A stretch of 64,000 nt of DNA from Plicaturopsis crispa FD-325 SS-3 (lineage: Eukaryota; Basidiomycota; Agaricomycetes; Amylocorticiales; Amylocorticiaceae), in contig KN832559.1 in NCBI GenBank assembly GCA_000827205.1, positions 1,462,148-1,526,147 of the forward strand. The letters run 5' to 3'. The notes beneath the pieces are model-generated. The model saw only the letters and a list, made by a program, of their open reading frames with translations, had not been told where the DNA came from and did not search any database. Each line of letters starts with the position of its first letter. Position 1 is the stretch's first letter. Made by a program: the position numbers and the translations under genes. Below, one piece after another: positions 19,648 through 57,488 of this stretch.

Positions 19648-19760
19648 ACGCCATTTCCTTTTCCGCGTGATGCCTTTACATTCCATTCATTCTTGCTCTC
19701 AAATTTGATTGAGTCCTCTGCATATTGGAGGGGGTACTACGAGAAAAGACTCTGAGTGAC

Positions 19761-19840
19761 ATCCAGCATGAAAACCATCCGAATATGATTTCTGTGTCGC
19801 AGGGAACGATGAAATTTACCTCCTACCTTCGCGCCTCGAC
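19761..19840 (+). repeat. 80-nt direct repeat, left of the assembly gap
   Basis: This is identical base for base to 20477-20556 on the other side of the run of N. It begins ATCCAGCATGAAAACC. Identity right up to both gap edges is the usual sign of two contig ends that overlap but were not merged. Confidence 0.95.
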
Positions 19841-20476
19841 NNNNNNNNNNNNNNNNNNNNNNNNNNNNNNNNNNNNNNNNNNNNNNNNNNNNNNNNNNNN
19901 NNNNNNNNNNNNNNNNNNNNNNNNNNNNNNNNNNNNNNNNNNNNNNNNNNNNNNNNNNNNNNNNNNNNNNNNNNNNNNNNNNNNNNNNNNNNNNNNNNNN
20001 NNNNNNNNNNNNNNNNNNNNNNNNNNNNNNNNNNNNNNNNNNNNNNNNNNNNNNNNNNNNNNNNNNNNNNNNNNNNNNNNNNNNNNNNNNNNNNNNNNNN
20101 NNNNNNNNNNNNNNNNNNNNNNNNNNNNNNNNNNNNNNNNNNNNNNNNNNNNNNNNNNNNNNNNNNNNNNNNNNNNNNNNNNNNNNNNNNNNNNNNNNNN
20201 NNNNNNNNNNNNNNNNNNNNNNNNNNNNNNNNNNNNNNNNNNNNNNNNNNNNNNNNNNNNNNNNNNNNNNNNNNNNNNNNNNNNNNNNNNNNNNNNNNNN
20301 NNNNNNNNNNNNNNNNNNNNNNNNNNNNNNNNNNNNNNNNNNNNNNNNNNNNNNNNNNNNNNNNNNNNNNNNNNNNNNNNNNNNNNNNNNNNNNNNNNNN
20401 NNNNNNNNNNNNNNNNNNNNNNNNNNNNNNNNNNNNNNNNNNNNNNNNNNNNNNNNNNNNNNNNNNNNNNNNNNNN
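19841..20476. other. Assembly gap (636 N)
   Basis: Unresolved bases. Because the flanks are the same 80 nt, the true gap may be zero or negative. If so, the arms of the inverted repeat would be separated by only about 209 bp. Confidence 0.99.
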
Positions 20477-20556
20477 ATCCAGCATGAAAACCATCCGAAT
20501 ATGATTTCTGTGTCGCAGGGAACGATGAAATTTACCTCCTACCTTCGCGCCTCGAC
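20477..20556 (+). repeat. 80-nt direct repeat, right of the assembly gap
   Basis: Exact copy of 19761-19840, as described for the left member. Confidence 0.95.
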
Positions 20557-20572
20557 GCGTCGTTCGGACTAG

Positions 20573-20811
20573 TTTCCCACGGGTCTGGGAGTCTCACCAA
20601 GGGCAATGTCGCCTCCTCCCGCTCTTTCTCGGCAATTTCTGCAACATTTGCGCGTCAGGTAGCGTATTTGTGACGTCCAGGAGGCGCTGGACACCGAAAA
20701 AATCGATGTATTTGAGGTTAATATAGTGGAAGTGCAAGCGCCCAAAACTTCAAAAACGAGAGTCGCGCGTCGGAAATTGAAAATCTAACCTTGGACTCCC
20801 TGGCCACGGTA
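20573..20811 (-). repeat. Right arm of the 239-bp inverted repeat
   Basis: Pairs with 19409-19647. The outer end lies 154 nt before the ATG of the integrase-core gene. The three differences between the arms are C/T or G/A but are not in CpG context, so they do not look like repeat-induced point mutation. Confidence 0.95.
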
Positions 20812-20965
20812 ATCGTGGGACGAGCACTGACTTGGAGGCCGCGAAGCGCCTGCTTTCATTGCTTTGAAGACCCTGCGGCTCCCGCCTCCTATGCCGACAG
20901 CCTGGAATTGTTATGACATAGGTGTCGTCTGCACAAAGACCTCCGACTTACACTGGCCGAGGTAG

Positions 20966-22593
20966 ATGGCTCCTTCAAATAATGTAGATGGAAACAATCA
21001 GCACGGACCTCCAATTCGTAAGTTCTCTCTGACATCCATATGCCAGTGAGCTCCTTTCACTAACTTACGAGTTTGTGTGAATCGCATAGTGAAGCAGTAC
21101 CCGCAATTGAAGAGTATATTGCAGGAGTATCACAACGCTCGTATGGACCAAGGGACTATGGTCTTGCGCCTCGTAAAGGAGCACCAAATTAGTATGAGGT
21201 ATGAGCATCCGTATTCACGATGTCGGCCGTGCAGTGTCGTGCTCCTCAGACATACTCACAATTTTCGGACAGTATACGCAGCTTGCAACGATGCATTACC
21301 CATTTATCGATCCAGACACCGCGCAAAACCGGTCTTTCGGAAGAAGAGTTTGGCATTGCGATTGTGCAGAAACTAAAGGAGGATCCGCTCGGACGATGGG
21401 GTTATCGCAAAGTCCAGGAAAAGCTTGCCCTTGACGGGATTCACATTCCACGGTGTGTAACCATGTACACTCGTCAGCATTTCAAGTTCTAACAGGTTGA
21501 ATTTGTACAAGGGACTATATCCAGAACTTCATGCAGGCCCGTGACAAGGAAGCGGCCCTAGCGCGGAATCCAACCTCTAAACAAATGCATCGGAAGGGAT
21601 TGTGGTCTGCCGGTCCAAATGAAGAATGGGGCGGAGACGGTCACGAGAAGATATTGGAGGAGATGGGGATCTCAATATGGGGATTAGTGGACAAAGCTTC
21701 TCGTCTCGAGCTAGGGTTGTGGGCCGTGCCCAGCTCGCGCACGCCGGAGGTGCCCGTTGCACTTTATCTACTTACCGTTAAGAAGCGGAAGGGTAAGCAA
21801 GTTTTTATCTCGGTGCTCTAAGATGTTCTAACGACCGCATTGGTTTTCTGCATTGGTTTTCTGGAACCACTCAGGGATTCCGATACAGCTTCTCACTGAC
21901 AAGGGCTCCGAGACGGGGCAGGTTGCAGCGCTTCAAACTACACTACGGTATGTTTACCTGCCATGATGAATTTGTGTTCAACTCATATAGATTCTATGAA
22001 GTCTGCGTTATAGGCCTGCCCTGGACGTGGACGAATTGCCTGCGCACCGCTTTGTCAAGAGTGTGTATAACATTGTGCGCGAGCGCGCATGGCGCCCCTT
22101 GTTCCACACGGAGCTTCAAAACATTTTAGTCGCTTGGAAAGAAGGGCAGCTTGGCGCAGGATACCATCCTCTCGACGAACGTCACCAGTATGTGTTTCTA
22201 TCTATTATGTGCTATTGTGCTTAACGAGACTCGTGCAGAGATTTTGCTGTCTGGATATGGTCCCAGATAGTGCAATTGCGTCTGGATCTTTTTGTGCGGG
22301 AAAGGAACGCGCACAAGATTCGGAAGCAAAAAAACACGTACCTGCCCTCTGGTGGGTCTGCAAATGACTTCTACGACTTTCCCGGGCGGTGGGGTGGTAC
22401 TGATATGCTGATTCCGGTCGACGAGACCGAGATAGACTTGCTCTTGGCACAACATTTACCTCCTCGTCTATTCCAGTTTGCTTCTGAGGAAGGGCACGCA
22501 CTCGCTGAACTTACTTTCCAAAAGATAGGCAGACCGCCGTTGACAGTACTGACCGGATGGAATGTTTTTCGTACGATGATATCCGCTGTATGA
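20966..22593 (+). mobile_element. Integrase-core (DDE) gene of the dispersed basidiomycete type, looks whole
   Basis: The spliced product begins MAPSNNVDGNNQHGPP (ATG 20966-20968) and continues KQYPQLKSILQEYHNARMDQ. A wing-like DNA-binding stretch follows (DPLGRWGYRKVQEKLALDG, about 21390), then an rve-like catalytic core: GGDGHEKI (first Asp), LLTDKGSE (second Asp) and NIVRERAWR (Glu), and a C-terminal domain with NAHKIRKQKNTYLPSG. It ends at the TGA at 22593. At least five introns with good consensus interrupt it, which is unusual for an active element and points to a resident, possibly domesticated gene. No reverse transcriptase, gag or LTR was seen nearby, so an LTR-element origin is not supported here. 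Recognition is from memory of the mushroom 'integrase core domain' family. Confidence 0.7.
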
Positions 22594-44700: not shown

Positions 44701-44944
44701 CGGCGCTGGCGTTGGTGGCGTCGCGCAGGCCGGGGTAGCGCAGGGCCGGGCGGGCGCGCAGCCGCCGCAGAGTGGGTACTATGGCGCGAATCGGTTCGCG
44801 TCGAGTGTGACGGCGGGGCCGCAGGCACAGCAGGGCCAGCAGCAGGGCCAGGGCCCGCAGGGGCATGTGGGCTATCCGCAGGGCCAGTCGGACGGGGGCT
44901 TCTACTCGTACCAGCCGAGGCAGCAGCAGGGGTATTGGCAGTGA
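41798..44944 (+). CDS. DEF1: DEF1-like CUE-domain protein (RNA polymerase II degradation factor)
   Basis: In yeast Def1 promotes ubiquitylation and removal of stalled RNA polymerase II and shuttles to the nucleus after processing. The start MSYKSSSFRAQPHSEQPDKY (ATG 41798-41800) precedes a CUE-like ubiquitin-binding domain spread over three exons (QLQELFPSWSSDDLHSVLLE; VAGDVELAATRISEGHAEQW). An RGG-rich block (GRGAGAGGRGGRGGRGGPG), a Pro/Glu-rich middle and a long Gln-rich, prion-like tail follow, with repeats of QQQ, the YGSPYNSGYG type and a terminal GYW; stop 44942-44944. Introns near 41915, 42038, 42623, 43195 and 43958 all keep frame. Architecture (CUE plus poly-Q tail) is the basis of the call; low-complexity regions carry little evidence. 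Confidence 0.8.
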
Positions 44945-45368
44945 TTGCGAATTGAATAGCGGACACATCGTTGGCGCGTTTCAACACTCTCGTGGCCTGA
45001 TTCTTGGATGACGTTTTCCTCTCTCCCCACCTCTCTCGTCTATATGTTCCTTGCTCGTCCATATTGTCATGTGTGTCGGCTCACATTTTCTCCTCTATCA
45101 GTTTCTGTGTTTTGTTTTCATTTTTTTCGTTTTCGTTTTTGCTCGTATCATACAACTCCTCTCATTCTCATTCAACCATCGTGTACGCCTATCGACATTG
45201 TGGGCCTTTGGCCGAGACGACAAAATGATGACACTAGTCTTCTGCACATGATTATGGTGGCCGTCTTTGAGACGTTGAGAGCGTGCAGTTTGAACTGACC
45301 GGTGTAAATCAGCCACTTGAGCCAGTGAGCACTTTGTGGGGTGCGCCACCGTGACTAGTACTATAGCG

Positions 45369-45399
45369 TGATTTGTCAGCTTATCGCGAGCGTTGAGTC
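45369..45399 (+). repeat. 31-nt inverted repeat member, left of the NmrA-SDR cluster
   Basis: Perfect reverse complement of 51866-51896. It begins TGATTTGTCAGCTTATCGCG. Similarity does not extend beyond these bases. Confidence 0.9.
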
Positions 45400-45712
45400 C
45401 GTTACATGTCATTGATTGTCAGACGTGCCACCATGGTGCCACCGTTTGGCATCGATTCATCATGCTCTGGTCATATCCAGCTCGAGAACAATATTAATTA
45501 TAAAGCGGATCCCATGGCCTTGAACAACAACACTTCACGCATGATGCCCCCGCAAATTGTGCCATCGAGGGCCTTGTTTTGCTGACTACACGCTCGCCGG
45601 TGTCTGGTAAGCACCCAATTTTCTATATATATGATTATTTGTAATGCAAACTCGGGGATGTTGCTTATAAAGCTCGCATTTCTCTCTGCGAGTTGGGTCA
45701 AGGAGTGGACGT

Positions 45713-45860
45713 ATGCACCATCCTGCTGCACTTCCATTGTCGTTTGTCATGCAAATGCTTACAGATATTTCTGTAGTGCAGATGCCGTCGCGTTCATGAA
45801 GCTATCATAGCGACTATACGCCCGACATACTTATATGTAGCAGTGAATCCGAATCTGGAT
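45713..45860 (+). promoter_or_regulatory. Upstream region shared by the NmrA-SDR paralogs (copy 1)
   Basis: Blocks of identity with about 48245-48370 include CGTTTGTCATGC, TGCTTACAGAT and a TATATGTAGC/TATACGTAGC element followed by GTGAGTCC or GTGAATCC. Their order and spacing to the ATG are similar, so the duplication carried the promoter. The TATA-containing element (TTATATGTAG, about 45830) is a candidate core promoter. Confidence 0.55.
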
Positions 45861-45906
45861 TTAATATCTTGCCCCACCTCCTACATTTCAGCAGTGAACT
45901 GAAATT

Positions 45907-47865
45907 ATGTCGTCGAAGATTCTCGCTGTTATCGGCGCCACGGGCGTCCAAGGACGCTCCATTCTCGACGCCTTTTCCGAGGTCGTCAACTGGAAGGTCC
46001 TCGCGCTCACTCGCAACCCGGACTCCGCTTCCGCAAAGGAAGCGGCTCAAATCCCCAATGTCACCGTCGTCAAAGCGGACCTCAACGACCATGCGCGTCT
46101 GGTCGAGGTGCTCCGTGGCGTCGATGCCGTATACGAGAACCTAAGTGTTGATGCCTTCGGCTCAGAGGATAAAGTGGTCGAGATCGGCAAGTCCGTCGTA
46201 GATGCCGCCAAGAAAAACAACATCGGCCATTTCATACACGCGCTCCTGCCCAACCTCGCCGCTATCTCCAAGGGTGAGTACTTGCCCTCGATGCAAGTAT
46301 GCTCCAGCAGGGCTAATATAAACTTTTGCGGCTAAGGAAAATATACTAATGGCTATCACTACAACGCCTCCAACCGCATAAAGCAGTACATCGAATCGCA
46401 AAACTTCCCTGCCACCTACCTCGTCGTCGGCTGGTACCTCAGTAACCTGCACACCTACCCAGCGTACAAGTACAAGCGCGACGCCGACGGCACCTACGTC
46501 TTCTCGTGGCCCACCTCCGGCAGTGTCGATATCCCCTACATTGACGCGCGCCGCGATACTGGCAAATTCGTACGCGGCATCCTGACTGGCCCGACGGCGT
46601 TGCCGCGCCCCGCGTACAGCACGGTTCGCGCAGAATCGGGGTGGGCGACGTTCGAGGAGCTCGTCGCTACCTGGGGCGAAGTCCACGGCGTCCCTGCGCG
46701 TTTCGAGAAAGCGGAGCGTGAGTTGTGGGTGACGGCTACAGCCGCTGCAATGAACGCCCCCCGCGAGGTTGTCGCGCAGTACGTCCACGTATGCATTGTT
46801 TGATTAGCGTGCCATCTGATGCGGTTCCCCATTATCAGGCGGTCCGAGATGTTCAGCGGGTACGACGAGTTCGGGGCCACCGGGAACGACGAGTTTAACA
46901 AACGTCTCCCCTTCCGCGAGTTCGCGCAGGGCAAAGACGGCCGCGCCGACCTTTCCACCGCACGCTCCTACTTCGAGGCCACCAAGAGCACATGGGCCCT
47001 CGAATCCAGCCCCACTACCCCACCCGCGACGCCCGCGGCGAAGCCCGTGGTGTTCATCCTGGGGTACGGGAACAACATCGGAAAGTCCGTCGCAGCGCGG
47101 TTTGCGGCGCAGGGGTACAGCGTCGCGGTGGCCTCGCGGTCGTCGACGGACGGGCCTACCCCGGAAGGGTATCTCGCTATCCGGCTTAACCTGGACCGCC
47201 CGCTTTCGGTCCGCGCGGCGTTCGACACGGTCGTGAGGAAGCTCGGCGCGCCGCGAGTCGTCGTCTACAATGGTACGCCCCTCCATCCCATCGCTGTCCC
47301 TATTCACTGGCGGACACTAACCAGACACTACCTCGATGTTTAGCGGCGGCGGGCGTCTTTGCCGGCGCAGCTGATCCGCTCGTAGTCTCCGCTGCGGACC
47401 TCTCGTCCTCGCTGAACGTGAACGTCGTGTCGTCGTACACGGCGGCACAGGCCGCGCTGGCGGCCCGCGCCCCCGGCGCGCCGCTCCACTTCATCTACAC
47501 GGGAAATGCGCTGAATAAGCTCGTGCTACCCGCGCTGTTGACGCTGGGCGTGGGCAAGAGTGGGACGCTGCACTGGCTGGAGGGCGCGGCGAAGGCATAT
47601 TCGCCGTCAGGCGCGCAGTGAGTGTTTTTCGCGTCGTATCGCATATTTGGGGAAAAAAGAGCACTGACGGCGGTGTGTGTGTAGGTTCTACTACGCGGAC
47701 GAGCGCATGGAGGACGGGAAGCCTGCGTATGGGAAGATTAACGGGGAGGCGCATGCGGACTTCTATACTTATTTGGCGGGGAGGACGGAGCAGGGGCCTG
47801 TGGCGGCTACGTTTGTGAAGGGGAAGGGTTATGTGAACTTCCCGCCGGAGACGAAGCTGCAGTAG
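45907..47865 (+). CDS. NmrA-SDR fusion protein, copy 1
   Basis: Exons 45907-46273, 46337-46778, 46839-47272, 47344-47617 and 47685-47865 sum to 565 codons plus stop. Residues 1 to about 290 are an NmrA-type atypical SDR: ILAVIGATGVQGRSILDAF (NAD(P) loop), VTVVKADLNDHARLVEVLRG, YHYNASNRIKQYIES and FPATYLVVGWYLSN. The third exon runs without a stop from the end of this domain (RSEMFSGYDEFGATGNDEF) through a Pro/Ala linker into a second Rossmann domain (VVFILGYGNNIGKSVAARF, VVVYNAAGVFAG, FIYTGNALNKLVLPALLTLG, QFYYADERM), which in mushrooms is usually a separate short-chain dehydrogenase. The second domain lacks a clear YxxxK dyad. This suggests nucleotide sensing or an unusual oxidoreductase; this is inference. 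Confidence 0.85.
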
Positions 47866-48244
47866 GGCGTTTGTCTAGGTTGTAAAGTTACTCTCCCGAA
47901 GATCTAGCTGGGTAATATTTATTTCTGACTATATGTGCGTGTAGCCAGTGTATACTTTTTTTACTTGCTCTACATATGCGTTGGCGGATCGGATATGGAG
48001 ACTACGGCATGGTCACCCATGTACTCGGCGACGGACACTCGGGTGCACTGACTCTCGGGTGCACTGATAATGAATTCGGTTACCTACATAAGATGCGGCT
48101 CGGGTGCACAGACTCCGAGGATCCGCGTTCATTCTCCAAAAACGTCAATCGACCTGGTCCTGGAGGGCAATGGTAAGCCAAGCAGTATTTACATGGCGCC
48201 CTTCAGACAAGGACATCCACCCGTAAGGTCGAAAGAATCGTTTC

Positions 48245-48370
48245 CCTGCTCCAATTTCTTTCTCGTTTGTCATGCCAGTGCTTACAGATCATAGTTGGAA
48301 TAGCATTGCGCTTATGAAGCATTCCTATCGACTGCAAGAACGTATATATACGTAGCGGTGAGTCCAGGAC
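48245..48370 (+). promoter_or_regulatory. Upstream region shared by the NmrA-SDR paralogs (copy 2)
   Basis: Counterpart of 45713-45860, with TTTGTCATGCCAGTGCTTAC, a GAAGC..TATCGACT block and TATATATACGTAGCGGTGAG. A candidate TATA box lies at about 48345-48353, some 90 bp upstream of the ATG. Confidence 0.55.
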
Positions 48371-48440
48371 TATCATTTGCAGAGTTACATCCCTCTGATT
48401 CCCTTTACCACCTCTCACCTTTCAAAACAAAGCTGAAATC

Positions 48441-50371
48441 ATGTCGAAGACTCTCGCTGTCATCGGTGCCACGGGCGTCCAAGGACGATCCATTCTCGAC
48501 GCCTTCGCCGAGGTCGTTAACTGGAAGGTCCTCGCGCTCACCCGCAACCCCGACTCCGCTTCCGCGAAGGAGGCTGCTCGAATCCCCAATGTCACCGTCG
48601 TCAAAGCGGACCTGAACGACCACGCGCGCCTGGTCGAGGTGTTCCGCGGCGTCGACGCTGTGTACGAGAATATCAGCGTTGAAGACGTTGGATCAGAGGA
48701 TAAAGCGGTGGAGATTGGCAAGTCCGTCGTGGATGCAGCGAGGCAGAACAATGTCGGCCATTTTATCCATGCGCTCCTGCCCAACCTTGCCGCTATCTCG
48801 AAGGGTGAGCACTTTTACTCGATGGAGGACGCTACTTAACATGGCTAATATCTATTTTGCGCCGAAGGCAAATATACCCGCGGATACCACTACAACGCCT
48901 CCAACCGCATCAAGCAATACATCGAATCCCTGAATTTCCCGGCTACCTACCTCGTCGTCGGTTGGTATCTCAGCAACTTGTACACGTTCGAGTCGTACAA
49001 GTACAAGCGAGACGCCAACGGCACTTACGTATTCTCATGGCCTACTTCCGGAGACGTCGATATCCCCTGGATTGACGCCCGCCGCGATACCGGCAAATAT
49101 GTGCGCGGCATCTTGACAGGCCCCACGGCGCTGCCGCGCCCCGCGTACAGTACCATTTCGGCGGTTTCTGGGTGGGCAACCTACGGAGAGCTCATCGCTA
49201 CCTGGGGAGAAGTCCACGGCGTTTCTGCGCGCTTCGAGAAAGCCGAACGCGAGGCGTGGCTAACGGATGCGGCCTCTCGAACGGATACCCCCCGTGAGGT
49301 CCTCGAGCTGTACGTCGCGTTTTCTAATTATCCTGTACTATGATCTGACGTGTTTCTCTATCATCAGACGGGCTGACATGTTCAGCGGGTACGATGAATT
49401 CGGGAGTACCGGGAACGATGAACTCTACAAACGCCTGCCCTTCCAAGAGTTTGCCCAGGAAAAAGGTGGGCGCGTCGATCTCTCGACCGCGCGCAGCTGC
49501 TTCGAGGCCACCAAGAGCGAGTGGAAGCTCGAAGCTGCTCCTGCCAAGGCACCTGCAGCGGCTCCCACGAAGCCCATTGTCTTCATCCTGGGATATGGCA
49601 GCAATGTCGGAAAGTCGGTCGCAGCACGATTCGCCTCGCAGGGCTACAGTGTCGCTGTTTCCTCCCGGTCAGCCGCCGACGGGACTACGCCGGAAGGATA
49701 TTTGTCTATCCGACTCAATCTGGAGCGTCCGCTGTCAGTGCGGGCAGCTTTCGACGCCGTGGTCAGGAAGCTCGGCGCTCCAAAAGTCGTCGTCTACAAC
49801 GGTGCGTCACTTTCTTCGCAAGATTTACGGATTGACACTGACGAGATTCACCTCCATGTTTAGCGTCGGCGGGGTTCTTCACCTCCGCAGAGGATCCGCT
49901 TTCGGTCCCTGCGTCTGATTTGGCGTCTACGCTGAACGTCAACACCGTGTCGGCGTACGCGGCTGCCCAGGCCGCCTTGTCGTACCGTACCCCCGGCGCG
50001 CCCTTCACATTCATCTTCACCGGAAACGCGCTGAACAAGCTCGTCCTGCCTGCGCTCCTGAATGCGGGTGTGGGTAAGACCGGCACGCTGCATTGGTTGG
50101 AAGGCGCTGCGATAGCCTATTCGCCGCAGGGCGCTCAGTAAGTGCTGCACCGTGTGTCCGTGCAAGCAGCATATTGACGATGGTGTGCAGATTCTACTAT
50201 GCTGACGAGCGCACGGCGGAGGGGAAGCCCGTGTATAACAAAATCGACGGGGAGGCCCATGCGGACTTTTATACTTATTTGGCGGGTAGGAAGGTGCAGG
50301 GACCTGTTGCCGCTACCTTCGTGAAGGGGAAAGGGTATGTGGACTTTCCCCCGGAGACGAAGCTGCAGTAG
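48441..50371 (+). CDS. NmrA-SDR fusion protein, copy 2
   Basis: Same architecture and the same five-exon structure as copy 1, which it follows head to tail. The NmrA part starts MSKTLAVIGATGVQGRSILD and has GTYVFSWPTSGDVDIPW and RADMFSGYDEFGSTGNDEL. The linker KLEAAPAKAPAAAPTKP is again inside one exon and leads to IVFILGYGSNVGKSVAARF, VVVYNASAGFFTSAEDPL, FIFTGNALNKLVLPALLNAG and QFYYADERT; the stop is at 50369-50371. The two proteins are highly similar throughout, with substitutions concentrated in the linker and near YxxSxK-type surface positions. Both copies keep open frames, so both are probably expressed. Function is inferred only from the folds: NAD(P)-binding, cytosolic or nuclear, possibly redox-linked regulation as for NmrA/HSCARG. 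Confidence 0.85.
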
Positions 50372-50648
50372 GACGTTCGTCCCGGTTGTAATGTTACTCT
50401 CCCCCAATGTCTACCTAGATGCTTAGAAGTTGTGACCATGCATGTAGCCAGTGTACTTTGATGCGTTTTGCGTATGTGTTTTGCGTATGCAATAAACAGC
50501 ATGCATCATGAGTATCGGAAACAACTACCAATGCCCATGTCGCCAGTGGTATACTGGCACAGGGTAGTACATGCCGCCTCGTGCCCGGGCCACTCTCCTT
50601 GCCACCAAGCATGTAAGCATGTTAGCAGAAAGTTTGATTCAAGTGCGC

Positions 50649-50748
50649 GACTCAACGCTCGAGATGTTGACAAACCATTACATGCATAACATGGCAGGCG
50701 GGTAAAAATACAGCTGTTTCACTTCTAATACTACATATGCATCCTGTC
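50649..50748 (+). repeat. About 100-bp direct repeat, member 1
   Basis: Aligns with 51866-51963 at roughly 70% identity with small gaps. Both start GACTCAACGCTCG and contain GGTAAAA..TACAG and TTTCACTTC. It lies between copy 2 and the 3' end of the CsbD-like gene. Confidence 0.75.
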
Positions 50749-50778
50749 CATCACAATCCCTAGCAGGAGTGTGTGCGT

Positions 50779-51359
50779 CTAATCATGAGGCGCCCTCGCA
50801 TCGCCGCGGGCGGCAGCTTTGCCGCCTGCCTCGCGCAGCTCGCCCTTCTCATGTAGCTCGGGCTTGTGGGTGGTCTTACCAACAACCTATTAGGCATGCC
50901 TGTCAGACATGCGCAGTTCAAGCAGCTGTATGTAGTGGGATTGTACTGACCTTCTGGGCCTTGCCGATGAGTTTGTCCCCGAATCCGGCTTTCCCTTCGG
51001 GCAGGTCGTCGCGGCCCCCAATGGCTACACCGCCTATTGCACAGGAGCACAGACACTGGTCAGCTTATATTCTCGTGTAGACGATGGTCGAGGCACTTAC
51101 CCTGCTCTGTGGGACGCGTGTCTAACGGGCGCTCGCTGTTATACGCCGTGTTCCCGGACGCACTGCCCGTGCGCTGGAAGCCCGTACTCGGCTGCTCATT
51201 AGGCGTGCCAGGAAGGTCTTTGAAGGCGGAGCTCGGCTGGCGCTCGATGGTCTGGGCGCTGTAGTCGGCGGAGGGGCCGGCGCTGCCCTTGGTGCCCGGG
51301 ATAGGATCAGAGGAGTTGTGGACCTGGTGGGAAGGGCGTTGGTAGTCGGTAGCGGACAT
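50779..51359 (-). CDS. CsbD-like small hydrophilic stress protein
   Basis: The ATG at 51357-51359 gives MSATDYQRPSHQVHNSSDPI, a disordered Gly/Ser/Thr-rich first part. After a short intron comes a CsbD-like segment (GFGDKLIGKAQK, then VVGKTTHKPELHEKGELREA) ending GDARAPHD with the stop at 50779-50781. CsbD proteins in bacteria are general-stress proteins; fungal homologs are small, hydrophilic and of unknown role. It is inserted between NmrA-SDR copy 2 and the relic of a third copy, in opposite orientation. Introns are short and keep frame. Confidence 0.7.
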
Positions 51360-51602
51360 GGTGATTTAAATGAAGTGCAGGTGTCTTTAGCGAGTTGGGT
51401 TGAAGTGTCGTAGCAGTGTATGTGCGCTTGGGCTGTGGGGTTCATTGGTTGTCAGCGAGGTTCATTTTATAGAGTGTGAGTGTGATGTCATAAGGGAGCA
51501 GTGGCGAGGGAACACCATAGGTCCGTCATTACTGACGCTCTGTCAATGGTACCCACTGCATATCCACGGCGATGAAGCAGCAACAAAGTGAGTCTCCTCA
51601 AC

Positions 51603-51700
51603 GTGAAAGGGAAGGGTTATGTGGACTTTTCCCCGTCGGCGAAGTTGCAGTAGGTCGCTCGGCCAGGGCATTTAAGCTGTACCATTAGCCTCTCTCGAAG
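51603..51700 (+). pseudogene. 3' relic of a third NmrA-SDR copy
   Basis: 51603-51653 reads VKGKGYVDFSPSAKLQ plus TAG, matching the C-terminus of copies 1 and 2 (VKGKGYVDFPPETKLQ). The following about 45 bp are still similar to their 3' flanks (TAGG.CG...CTCTC.CGAAG). Nothing upstream of 51600 is homologous, so this is only the tail of a lost duplicate. Confidence 0.85.
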
Positions 51701-51865
51701 TTTTATTTAGTTGCTCACTTTTTGGGCCCCCGAGCCTTTGATGCGTTCTGCATTATAATACAGTACGCCACGAACGTGATCTGATGGGTATAAATGCGAG
51801 AATGAATTTATGCTGGTCAGCCAGGATCAGCTAAGTACCGCCGCTTCGTCGAAGTTCGGGTACCC

Positions 51866-51963
51866 GACTCAACGCTCGCGATAAGCTGACAAATCAGCAC
51901 TCAAACATTGCAGACAGGTAAAATACAGTTGATTTCACTTCCAGTACCAAGTACATCTTGTCG
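51866..51963 (+). repeat. About 100-bp direct repeat, member 2, including the 31-nt inverted repeat partner
   Basis: Partner of 50649-50748. Its first 31 nt (51866-51896) are the exact reverse complement of 45369-45399. It sits downstream of the third-copy relic just as member 1 sits downstream of copy 2, so it probably belongs to the ancestral duplicated unit. Confidence 0.75.
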
Positions 51964-52062
51964 TACAACCTAAGTAGTCAAAGAACTTCAATTGTTAGCA
52001 CCCTATCTCACTACCGAGAGAAAGGTTTAGCGAGATCCATACATACCATTCTTTCCATAACC

Positions 52063-53617
52063 TCAGGCGCCCATGTCCTCAACGCGGACACTCATATCCT
52101 TGTCCACCATGATAAGCTCGTTCTTTCCCAGCAGCTTCCACTCATCTAGCGCAAAAGCTGAATTGCACGCATTCCCGGTCAGCTCAAACCGGTGCAGCTC
52201 TAGAGGGTGCTCGGCTTACTGGTAGGCTCAGACGCAACGATGACGTGCAAGTCATGGCCGCCGTGGTGGCGTTTCTGCACGAGCTCGCTGGACGCAGGGC
52301 CAGCGTTTAACATTTCGTCCGGTGTGTTGGGGGCGTCGTGCACAGAGCCGCCGTATTGGCGGTTGAGCGTGGTGCCCGCCTTTGTGGAGACGTACAAGCT
52401 GGGCGGCTCTTCGTCCGGGTGGTCGACGTTGCGGTAGCGGCAGGCGACAAGCTGCTCTCCGTCCGCTGTAGCGCACGAGCGCTCGCTGTCATGGAATATA
52501 AACAGTAGAGAAGAGTCGGAACTCACAGGAACAGAGGTTCAGCGAGTTTCCGGCGGATTTGAGCTCCTCTGGAGTGAGGATCTGCTTTTGCACCTCTTCG
52601 ATCTGGTGGATAGCTTTGATCAAGGAGTCTCGCATGTGCCGGACTGAGTAAGATTTGTTGATGTCCCCGAGGAAAGTGAAGTACAGCGCGGCGAGATGCT
52701 CGGTGTCGGTGTTCCCGTAGATGAGCGCACTATACTCTTTCTTGATTTTGAGCAGAAGCGTAGTGCGCTTCGTATTAGCATGCTTGTGAGCCTCGTACGC
52801 GTGAACGGGAAATGTGTGCGAGTGCTCACAATCTTTGGGAAGTACGCAATGGAGCCGTTATGCATGAAGTTGTGCCGTCCGAATACGAACGGATGGTTGT
52901 TCGTAGGCACGACCGGTGGACGCGTCGCTGCACGAATGTGTGCAGAAATGACCTTGGACGCTGTGTTGGCACAGATGTAAGTAAATGTCGGATCCGTCAG
53001 GCTGTACGGAAGCTCCAGCTCAGCGGCAGTCGAAGCGACAGGCAGAGAGTGGGCTTACGCGGGAGCGACAGTCTTGTAGAGGGCGGGCAGCGGGCCCTTC
53101 GTGTCCGTATCGAAGATCGAGCGTGTGTCTGTGTACCAAGTGACTCCGAATCCGTCGATGTTGAAGAGCACATTTCCTGGGCATTGTAGTGTGTGAGGCG
53201 ACGATTTAGCGAGGACGCGGGGGTTAATGATACGAACGCAGGTCGGTCTCAGGGCCGGGCACCAATCCTGGACGGGAGCAGAATCAGCGACTAAAGTAGG
53301 TATCTGTGAAATTTCCACAAACCAGGCAGATAGTGGTCGTGAACTCTGCGAAAATTAGCGCAGATGGTCAAATTCGAGACTGGATCAAATTAAGCAGCAG
53401 GTAACCGTACTGTTTGCTTCATGACAAGAATAAAGATCAAGTGTCAGGCTTGACAATACAAATGATCATAGTAGGGATGAACGTACGTGATAGCATGAGG
53501 TGGGTTGATCAGAACATCCTCGAGCAGGACGGGTTCTCTGGCTAAGTTGTTGGGAGTTGACGCAGGCCATGAAGAGATCAGTACTTACAACGAGATGAAC
53601 GCAAACCAGCGACACAT
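52063..53617 (-). CDS. DUG3: Class II glutamine amidotransferase-like protein (DUG3 type)
   Basis: Class II GATases use an N-terminal Cys exposed by Met removal; yeast Dug3 is part of a glutathione-degrading complex. The start MCRWFAFISL (ATG 53615-53617) provides Cys2. Next come EPVLLEDVLINPPHAIT, VHDHYLP, LFNIDGFGVTWYTDTRSIF, PTNNHPFVFGRHNFMHNGSI (glutamine-binding loop), KSYSVRHMRDSLIKAIHQIE and the late part VACRYRNVDHPDEEPPSLYV, ASEPTTFALDEWKLLGKNEL and VDKDMSVRVEDMGA, with the stop at 52063-52065. The multi-exon structure keeps frame at the joins checked. A bacterial-like EgtC role cannot be excluded from sequence alone. Confidence 0.82.
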
Positions 53618-55979: not shown

Positions 55980-57488
55980 TCAGAAAACACCCTTGACACC
56001 CAAACCACCCATGCCCGGTACCCCGAGGGCCCCTACGCTCGTTTCGTCCAGTCTAGCTTCGATTACAGCGCACGCATCCACCCACGCACATACCGCTCCC
56101 GCCAGTCCCTCGAACAGCGAATCGGGATTGTCGGGAGTGTGATACGTATGCGACCGCTGAAGAGGCGGTAGCTCCGTGGAGTGCACCAAGAACGCCAGCG
56201 CGCGAGAAAGATGCAGGTCGGACAACGAAGGGGAACAGGTCGAGAGCAAGAGCAGGGGATACGCGTTCCCGCTGACGCCGTGGCATACCCCGAGACCCTT
56301 CTTTAGAAGGCCCTCGCGCCACACCTTGTCGGCGGCCATGCGCTCTGCGCGCTGGACTACCCGTGCGTTTGCACGCTCCGCCAGGAGGGCGGGGTGCAAT
56401 GAGCGGAGGGTGGCTGCGAGGAGGAGCACGCCGGGCGCGCCGTGGCAGAGCTGCACGAGGTCCCCGCCGTCGCGCTGACGGGCGGGGAGAGAGGACGGCA
56501 GACTGCCGTTCCAGGTGGTGCACACGCGGGAGAGAAGTGCTAGCGCCGATGTGTGGACAAGAATGAGGGAATTCGGCGATAGAAGGTGTGCAGGCACTTG
56601 TAGGAGAACGCTGAGGATTCCCACTGGCCGTGTGCGGTGTTTAGCATAAGCTGAGGGTACATCCAACTGGACTTGCCTGATCCATGAATTGCTCCGAGGT
56701 AGAACTTTCCGTGCCACTGCCACATCAGAGGGCACGGCGCACTCCCGTGCGACGCCTCGAACAGCTCCTTGCCTCTCTTACCAGAGTGCACTAGAATGGC
56801 AGAAAGCACCCTAACGATATCGTCGTTCACTACGCGGCGCAATTCTGCAACCCTTTCCTCCGGGATTTCCGAATTATCCGCGAGATAAGATATGTTCAGC
56901 GCGGCCCACAAGAGCCCTGCACGACCGTAGAGCACTTCTGCGCCTCCGCCGGCCTGAACCTCCGGATCTCTTCGTGCATCAATTGCAAGTTGGATGTGCG
57001 CAGCTAGTGTCCGGAGGGCAACGTTCCAGCGCCTCGCGGAGATCTCGGAGAGCTGAAGCTGCCGTATGAGTTCGAGCACCGCACGCCCGCAGGACGCGGA
57101 TCCTATGGGGGAGACCCAAGTGCGTTGTATCGCTTCATCGCGAAGATCTGGTAACACGCTCAACGCAAGCTCAGAGAGTAATTCGTATCTGGAGGGAACA
57201 TTTAAGACCGACGAAAGCGCCGGCCGTTCGAGAGAGAGGCGTAAATATACGGCAGTTATGCCTAAGAGACGTCATATCGAGGATTCGGTTTAGCCTGCTG
57301 TCAATAAACTCACCGCTCAAGCCGGTGTACGGCGCAGACGACGAGGATCGATCGCTATTTCCTAGCCGTGTAAGTCGTTGGCCGATGGCCTCTGTTAAGA
57401 TCGTATGCGCATCCCGGAGAGAGTCCTTATCGAGTGGCCATGGCTGCAAATCGTTCTGAATGTATCGTGCTTCAGCTTTGTATGGCAT
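55980..57488 (-). CDS. LanC-like protein
   Basis: Eukaryotic LANCL proteins are zinc proteins that bind glutathione and act on dehydroamino acids. The ATG at 57486-57488 gives MPYKAEARYIQNDLQPWPLD. Then come GITAVYLRLSL, GAEVLYGRAGLLWAALNISY, FYLGAIHGSVGILSVLLQVP (across a GC-AG intron), VQLCHGAPGVLLL (first zinc Cys), GVCHGVSGNAYPLLLL (zinc Cys-His pair) and a C-terminal SHTYHTPDNPDSLFEGLAG, ending at 55980. The three zinc ligands are all present. Length about 440 residues, as expected. Without the GC-AG intron the frame would be lost at about 56676. Confidence 0.88.
56624..56676 (-). other. GC-AG intron in the LanC-like gene
   Basis: On the minus strand the donor is TCAG|GCAAGT and the acceptor GGCCAG. 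This 53-nt removal joins AIHGS to VGILSVLLQVPAHLL in the correct frame, matching the family's HGSVGIL motif. No GT donor nearby gives an in-frame join. Confidence 0.75.

Follow-up and report, generated by a model that had tools for sequence, protein, structure and literature searches.

Two tandem genes in the analysed stretch of DNA (64,000 nucleotides, C6:1462148-1526147 of a 33.2-Mb genome in 49 contigs; referred to below as the window) raise the question of whether an NmrA-like domain and an SDR domain are joined in one protein and, if so, what such a protein could do. Copy 1 (45907..47865, plus strand) encodes 565 aa plus a stop codon in five exons (45907-46273, 46337-46778, 46839-47272, 47344-47617, and 47685-47865). 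Copy 2 (48441..50371, plus strand) encodes 564 aa plus a stop codon, also in five exons (48441-48804, 48868-49309, 49368-49801, 49864-50137, and 50191-50371). Both frames are uninterrupted from ATG to stop. All eight introns have GT-AG borders and lengths of 53-71 bases, and their positions and phases are shared by the two copies. Splicing with introns this short identifies the DNA as fungal, probably that of a mushroom-type basidiomycete. According to the Pfam analysis, each protein begins with an NmrA-like half (PF05368), which a short Ala/Pro linker connects to an SDR half (PF00106). In copy 1, NmrA was matched at residues 3-285 (E 2.3e-45) and adh_short at residues 340-454 (E 3.4e-10); the E-values for copy 2 were 4.3e-45 and 2.4e-10, respectively. 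The scores of copies 1 and 2 were above the cut-offs for both families, namely, 155.9 and 155.0 bits for PF05368 (curated cut-off 27) and 40.2 and 40.7 bits for PF00106 (cut-off 26.6).

Exon 3 of copy 1 (46839..47272, plus strand) contains the end of the NmrA-like half, the Pro/Ala linker, and the first part of the SDR half, and its counterpart in copy 2 (49368..49801, plus strand) has the same content. In both window copies, this exon reaches into the SDR glycine loop. The earlier note had described a single exon crossing from the NmrA end through the linker into a second Rossmann domain in both copies, and the coordinates it gave for this exon proved exact. It had also claimed that the fusion is present in the DNA and is not an annotation error; this holds, since exon 3 spans the linker and a third fused copy is located elsewhere in the genome. 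The latter (C5:149015-147089, minus strand; the C5 copy below) is an intact fused gene that encodes 562 aa and matches the window copies in exon layout.

An annotation-type artefact, in which neighbouring genes were merged into one, is almost certainly not the explanation. The linker is crossed by exon 3 in all three copies, and the start of the SDR half, which is near residue 340 in copy 1, has no Met in its vicinity. Met residues are found at positions 1, 261, 274, and 514 in copy 1, at positions 1 and 273 in copy 2, and at positions 1, 273, and 520 in the C5 copy; in none of the three does a Met fall after the NmrA tail and before the SDR glycine loop. The SDR half therefore lacks a separate start codon both at the linker and at the glycine loop. 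In addition, the stretch made up of exon 3 and intron 3 contained no AATAAA-like signal in copies 1 and 2. The variant of two adjacent genes misread as one was rejected on the basis of exon 3 running across the linker and the lack of a Met near the SDR start. Each gene is predicted to encode a single two-domain protein.

The copy 1 SDR half was used for a protein search of its own genome (E up to 0.1), which found 10 places: nine exons of the three fused genes and one fragment on C38. At this threshold, the SDR type in question is present in the genome only in the fused form, with the exception of this 161-bp fragment. A stand-alone fungal version of this SDR type probably exists. The C38 fragment (L049 4529-4688, C38:13028-13187; 161 aligned bases, 90% identical) belongs to the C5 fused gene and contains intron 4, and therefore it was copied as DNA. 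As for the N-terminal half, the search of the genome with E up to 0.001 gave 11 rows: nine are exons of the three fused genes, and the other two are unfused paralogs with identities of 33% and 30%. At these thresholds (E up to 0.1 for SDR, up to 0.001 for NmrA), neither half had a close copy in unfused form in the genome. The Pfam NmrA search of the genome returned 26 rows, five of them scoring under the cut-off, which were merged by position into 23 loci. Three of these loci are the fused genes, and the remaining 20 of the 23 have no SDR partner of the fused type. The suggestion that the two halves are normally separate proteins was thus borne out in part, for these 20 loci and three stand-alone bacterial SDR relatives described below.

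Traces of a further copy are also present in the window. A remnant of its 3' end (51602..51667, plus strand), 82% identical to the copy 2 tail, holds the last codons, the stop, and the start of the 3' flank. Separately, the DNA at 51865-51962 resembles that at 50648-50748 (76%), and therefore the array may formerly have extended further.

Protein identity is 81% between copies 1 and 2, 77% between copy 1 and the C5 copy, and 79% between copy 2 and the C5 copy. By dS, the closest relative of copy 2 is the C5 copy and not copy 1. Over the whole length, dS between copies 1 and 2 is 0.81 and dN is 0.12. In the N-terminal half, dN and dS are 0.100 and 0.720 for copies 1 and 2, 0.105 and 0.904 for copy 1 and the C5 copy, and 0.094 and 0.626 for copy 2 and the C5 copy; the respective values in the C-terminal half are 0.127 and 0.892, 0.197 and 1.434, and 0.161 and 0.814. 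The dN/dS ratio per half over the three pairs is 0.12-0.20. The 12-residue linker is 25% (copies 1 and 2), 17% (copy 1 and the C5 copy), and 67% (copy 2 and the C5 copy) identical, that is, 17-67% compared with 71-83% for the halves. The low dN/dS in the halves and the variable linker therefore indicate constraint on both halves but not on the linker. A fusion in decay was rejected, since dN/dS is low in both halves. Retention of the copies after duplication, which had been put forward previously, agrees with the three intact copies and the purifying selection on both halves. The fusion itself probably predates the duplications. The third-position GC content is highest in copy 1 (0.80), the others having 0.72 and 0.69.

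An element of 35-37 nt (45369..45405, plus strand) ends 501 bp before the ATG of copy 1. The same element in inverted orientation, with 95% identity, is located at 51860..51896 (minus strand), its end being 500 bp upstream of an ATG at 51359 on the same strand. It is also found upstream of the C5 fused gene (C5:149532-149566, minus strand), 516 bp before the ATG, where 35 of 35 bases are identical. This identity contrasts with the dS of 1.1 between the copy 1 and C5 genes, and, apart from the last ~10 bases before the ATG, no other upstream alignment of these two genes was obtained (E up to 1e-3). The core of the element, with up to 3 mismatches allowed, has six matches in the genome and none for the reversed control. 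At the other three sites (L056, L057, and L058, the last with its match at C6:219323-219346), the element lies in otherwise differing sequence, and L056 and L057 are also alike further upstream. Copy 2 lacks the element, and the tandem repeat unit begins downstream of it. The CTTATC within the element is presumably a GATA-type site on the other strand. This 30-37 nt sequence may be either a shared cis element or a short dispersed repeat. By eye, the L058 element is situated just 3' of a reading frame resembling the end of a urease gene.

Ten flanking frames (of 52) were scanned; six match Pfam families (SRAP, rhodanese, Rtt106-like, DUF4419, LanC-like, and WD40-type), and four match none. The matched families are housekeeping-like or of unknown function, and therefore they indicate no metabolic cluster and suggest no pathway. 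The score of the LanC-like reading frame (56543-57271, minus strand) was 23.9 bits compared with a cut-off of 23.2 bits. A small gene that occurs once in the genome (50779-51359, minus strand), with an unsure model joined by eye, shows a weak CsbD-like similarity (E 0.056; score 13.8 bits, cut-off 40). The Rfam search of 44900-53000 gave no match at E up to 0.5. In another part of the window, the region 19713-20593 contains stop-to-stop frames of 224-266 codons in all six reading frames and lies beside a low-GC stretch (20001-22000, GC 0.38); no tandem repeat was found in this region or the low-GC stretch.

In the NmrA-like half, the nucleotide loop GATGVQG (GxxGxxG) is invariant in the three fused copies. 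The Lys of NmrA and NMRAL1 is replaced by Ser134 (copy 1 numbering) in all of them. Plant reductases of the NmrA-like family also carry that Lys. Among the unfused paralogs (four aligned of 11 distinct loci), two have Lys at this column and two have Arg, one of the Arg rows (L008) being a chance-level match with an E-value of 0.78. Judging by the aligned sequences, the Lys at this column is no feature of the whole NmrA-like family, as it is absent from CtdP and two of the four paralogs have Arg. The best match of the profile built from the three N-terminal halves was CtdP (7uf8), with an alignment at 3-315, nearly full length (E 2.5e-16); NmrA came behind it (3-200, E 4.3e-13). The copy 1 N-terminal half taken alone ranked NmrA first (E 1.5e-16) and CtdP fourth (2.6e-14).

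As for the SDR half, the glycine loop GYGxNxG is kept in the three copies. Instead of the Tyr of YxxxK, copy 1 has Leu482, copy 2 has Ala481, and the C5 copy has Leu480; the Lys of this motif is kept in all three (486 in copy 1), and Asn 441 (copy 1) is also kept. The classical catalytic Ser is replaced by Asn (TGNALN) in the three copies, so that the SDR half has neither the complete YxxxK nor the catalytic Ser of classical SDRs. The earlier note was right that the second domain lacks a plain YxxxK. Its use of this lack as a sign of the role of the fusion fails, since stand-alone relatives are also without the Tyr. The best two of the 33 solved-structure matches of the SDR half, 5u2w and 3rih, bear the Tyr, which was checked in these two and in BdcA.

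At 1e-5, a tblastn search with the copy 1 SDR half matched no plasmid. The C5 SDR half (E up to 1) gave 298 records, with the best match having 35% identity and an E-value of 1e-8. Four of the 20 listed records (298 in total) were examined: the three whose listed E-values were lowest and a weak match that was full-length. The former three (Streptomyces twice and Nonomuraea; L073, L074, and L075) are stand-alone SDR frames in which Leu substitutes for the Tyr and the Lys is kept, whereas the fourth (Ensifer, E 0.04) carries the Tyr and is a classical SDR. In the 11-row tree, the fungal SDR half and the three Tyr-less proteins were placed apart from five Tyr-bearing SDRs with a support of 99/98, in the presence of long-branch warnings. 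An earlier 12-row tree, which included a spurious wrong-strand row (L072), showed the same grouping (96/98); both trees were constructed without L068, L069, and L071, since the length and motif filter selected no frame from them. Searches of the genome contig collection with the SDR alignment and of viral contigs with the fused alignment gave 97 and 263 pattern matches, respectively, none of which was confirmed. In the genome contig collection, the NmrA alignment gave 72 pattern matches, of which 3 were weak partial relatives. Weak SDR matches (E up to 1e-7) were present in 4 of the 296 genomes of the phylum of G001. The loss of the Tyr is most plausibly a trait of an older SDR branch that would predate the fusion, because the stand-alone actinobacterial relatives also have Leu. 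The fusion as the cause of the loss was rejected, given that stand-alone bacterial SDRs share it.

The fused protein would combine an NmrA-like half and a half of the tyrosine-less SDR branch, the two being tethered through a short linker that varies freely. Each half probably binds its own NAD(P)(H), because both glycine loops are intact, and two cofactor pockets would thus be held in cis. These pockets may work on related or successive steps of a small-molecule oxidoreduction, the enzymatic step being the uncertain part of the proposal. From the residues present, classical catalysis looks lost. We tentatively favour, at slightly less than an even chance, a non-classical small-molecule oxidoreductase and not a classical alcohol dehydrogenase. 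The latter is disfavoured because the SDR Tyr and Ser and the NmrA/NMRAL1 Lys are replaced, and the former is favoured because the N-half profile matches CtdP, an enzyme, nearly over its full length and because members of the Tyr-less SDR branch occur elsewhere as stand-alone proteins. The ranking of NmrA first and CtdP fourth by the copy 1 N-terminal half counts against this oxidoreductase reading, as do the lack of a metabolic cluster among the ten flanking frames scanned and the small size (11 rows) and long-branch warnings of the tree.

The absence of canonical catalytic residues in both halves would suit a binding or regulatory role equally well. NmrA and NMRAL1/HSCARG bind NAD(P)(H) and report the cofactor state to a partner without catalysis. 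A redox or nucleotide-ratio sensor, both halves of which act in this manner, is possible, if somewhat unlikely; the earlier note had proposed such a sensor or a channelling enzyme. The glycine loops are kept while the SDR Tyr and Ser and the NmrA/NMRAL1 Lys are replaced; however, the Tyr loss is also seen in stand-alone bacterial SDRs, and NMRAL1 and NmrA themselves retain the Lys that the fused proteins have lost. The Ser at the Lys column in all three fused proteins, compared with two Lys and two Arg (one of E 0.78) in the aligned unfused paralogs, is in line with a sensor, as is NmrA being the best match of the copy 1 N-terminal half alone, although this alignment to NmrA ends near residue 204. 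The intact GxxGxxG of Tar1, an Nmr homolog of the basidiomycete Cryptococcus (PMC3314646), points the same way. A double pseudo-reductase, in which two different NAD(P) pockets on one polypeptide, both without their classical catalytic residues, compare cofactor states as a ratio sensor, would be a long shot; the states compared could be, for example, NADP versus NAD or oxidised versus reduced. The short, freely varying linker, the own intact glycine loop in each half, and the three copies within one genome are consistent with an ordinary lineage-specific fusion without joint function, whose tethered domains work apart and whose architecture may be common in mushrooms. Such a fusion is nevertheless unlikely, as none of the intact copies found lacks the tether and the genome has no unfused close copy of either half at the thresholds given above.

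Among the literature matches listed, none describes an NmrA-SDR fusion. If each pocket binds a different form of the cofactor, the protein would naturally serve to read redox state through two inputs or, alternatively, to couple a pair of non-classical reductive steps. Were it an enzyme, it would still offer a handle on the tyrosine-less SDR branch, which is present in the fungus here and in actinobacteria.

Among known systems, CtdP is NmrA-like and also lacks a Lys in the Lys column of NmrA; its 348-aa chain has no SDR half. NmrA of Aspergillus nidulans (1xgk) belongs to the same family, but it is a 352-aa chain without a second domain and has Lys where the fused proteins have Ser. NMRAL1/HSCARG (2wm3, 2exx; E about 1e-11) is likewise NmrA-like, its chains of 299-306 aa being without an SDR half and with the Lys kept. 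Tar1 of Cryptococcus is an NmrA-like protein that keeps the GxxGxxG, as the fused proteins do. On the SDR side, the classical SDRs 5u2w and BdcA (4pcv) share the Rossmann SDR domain (E 3.5e-10 and 3e-5, respectively), but they have the Tyr of YxxxK, whereas the fused proteins have Leu or Ala. The Streptomyces and Nonomuraea proteins show 28-30% identity to the SDR half, with Leu at the Tyr position and the Lys kept; in contrast to the fused proteins, they are unfused, have Gly instead of Asn at the Ser position, and end in another C-terminal tail.
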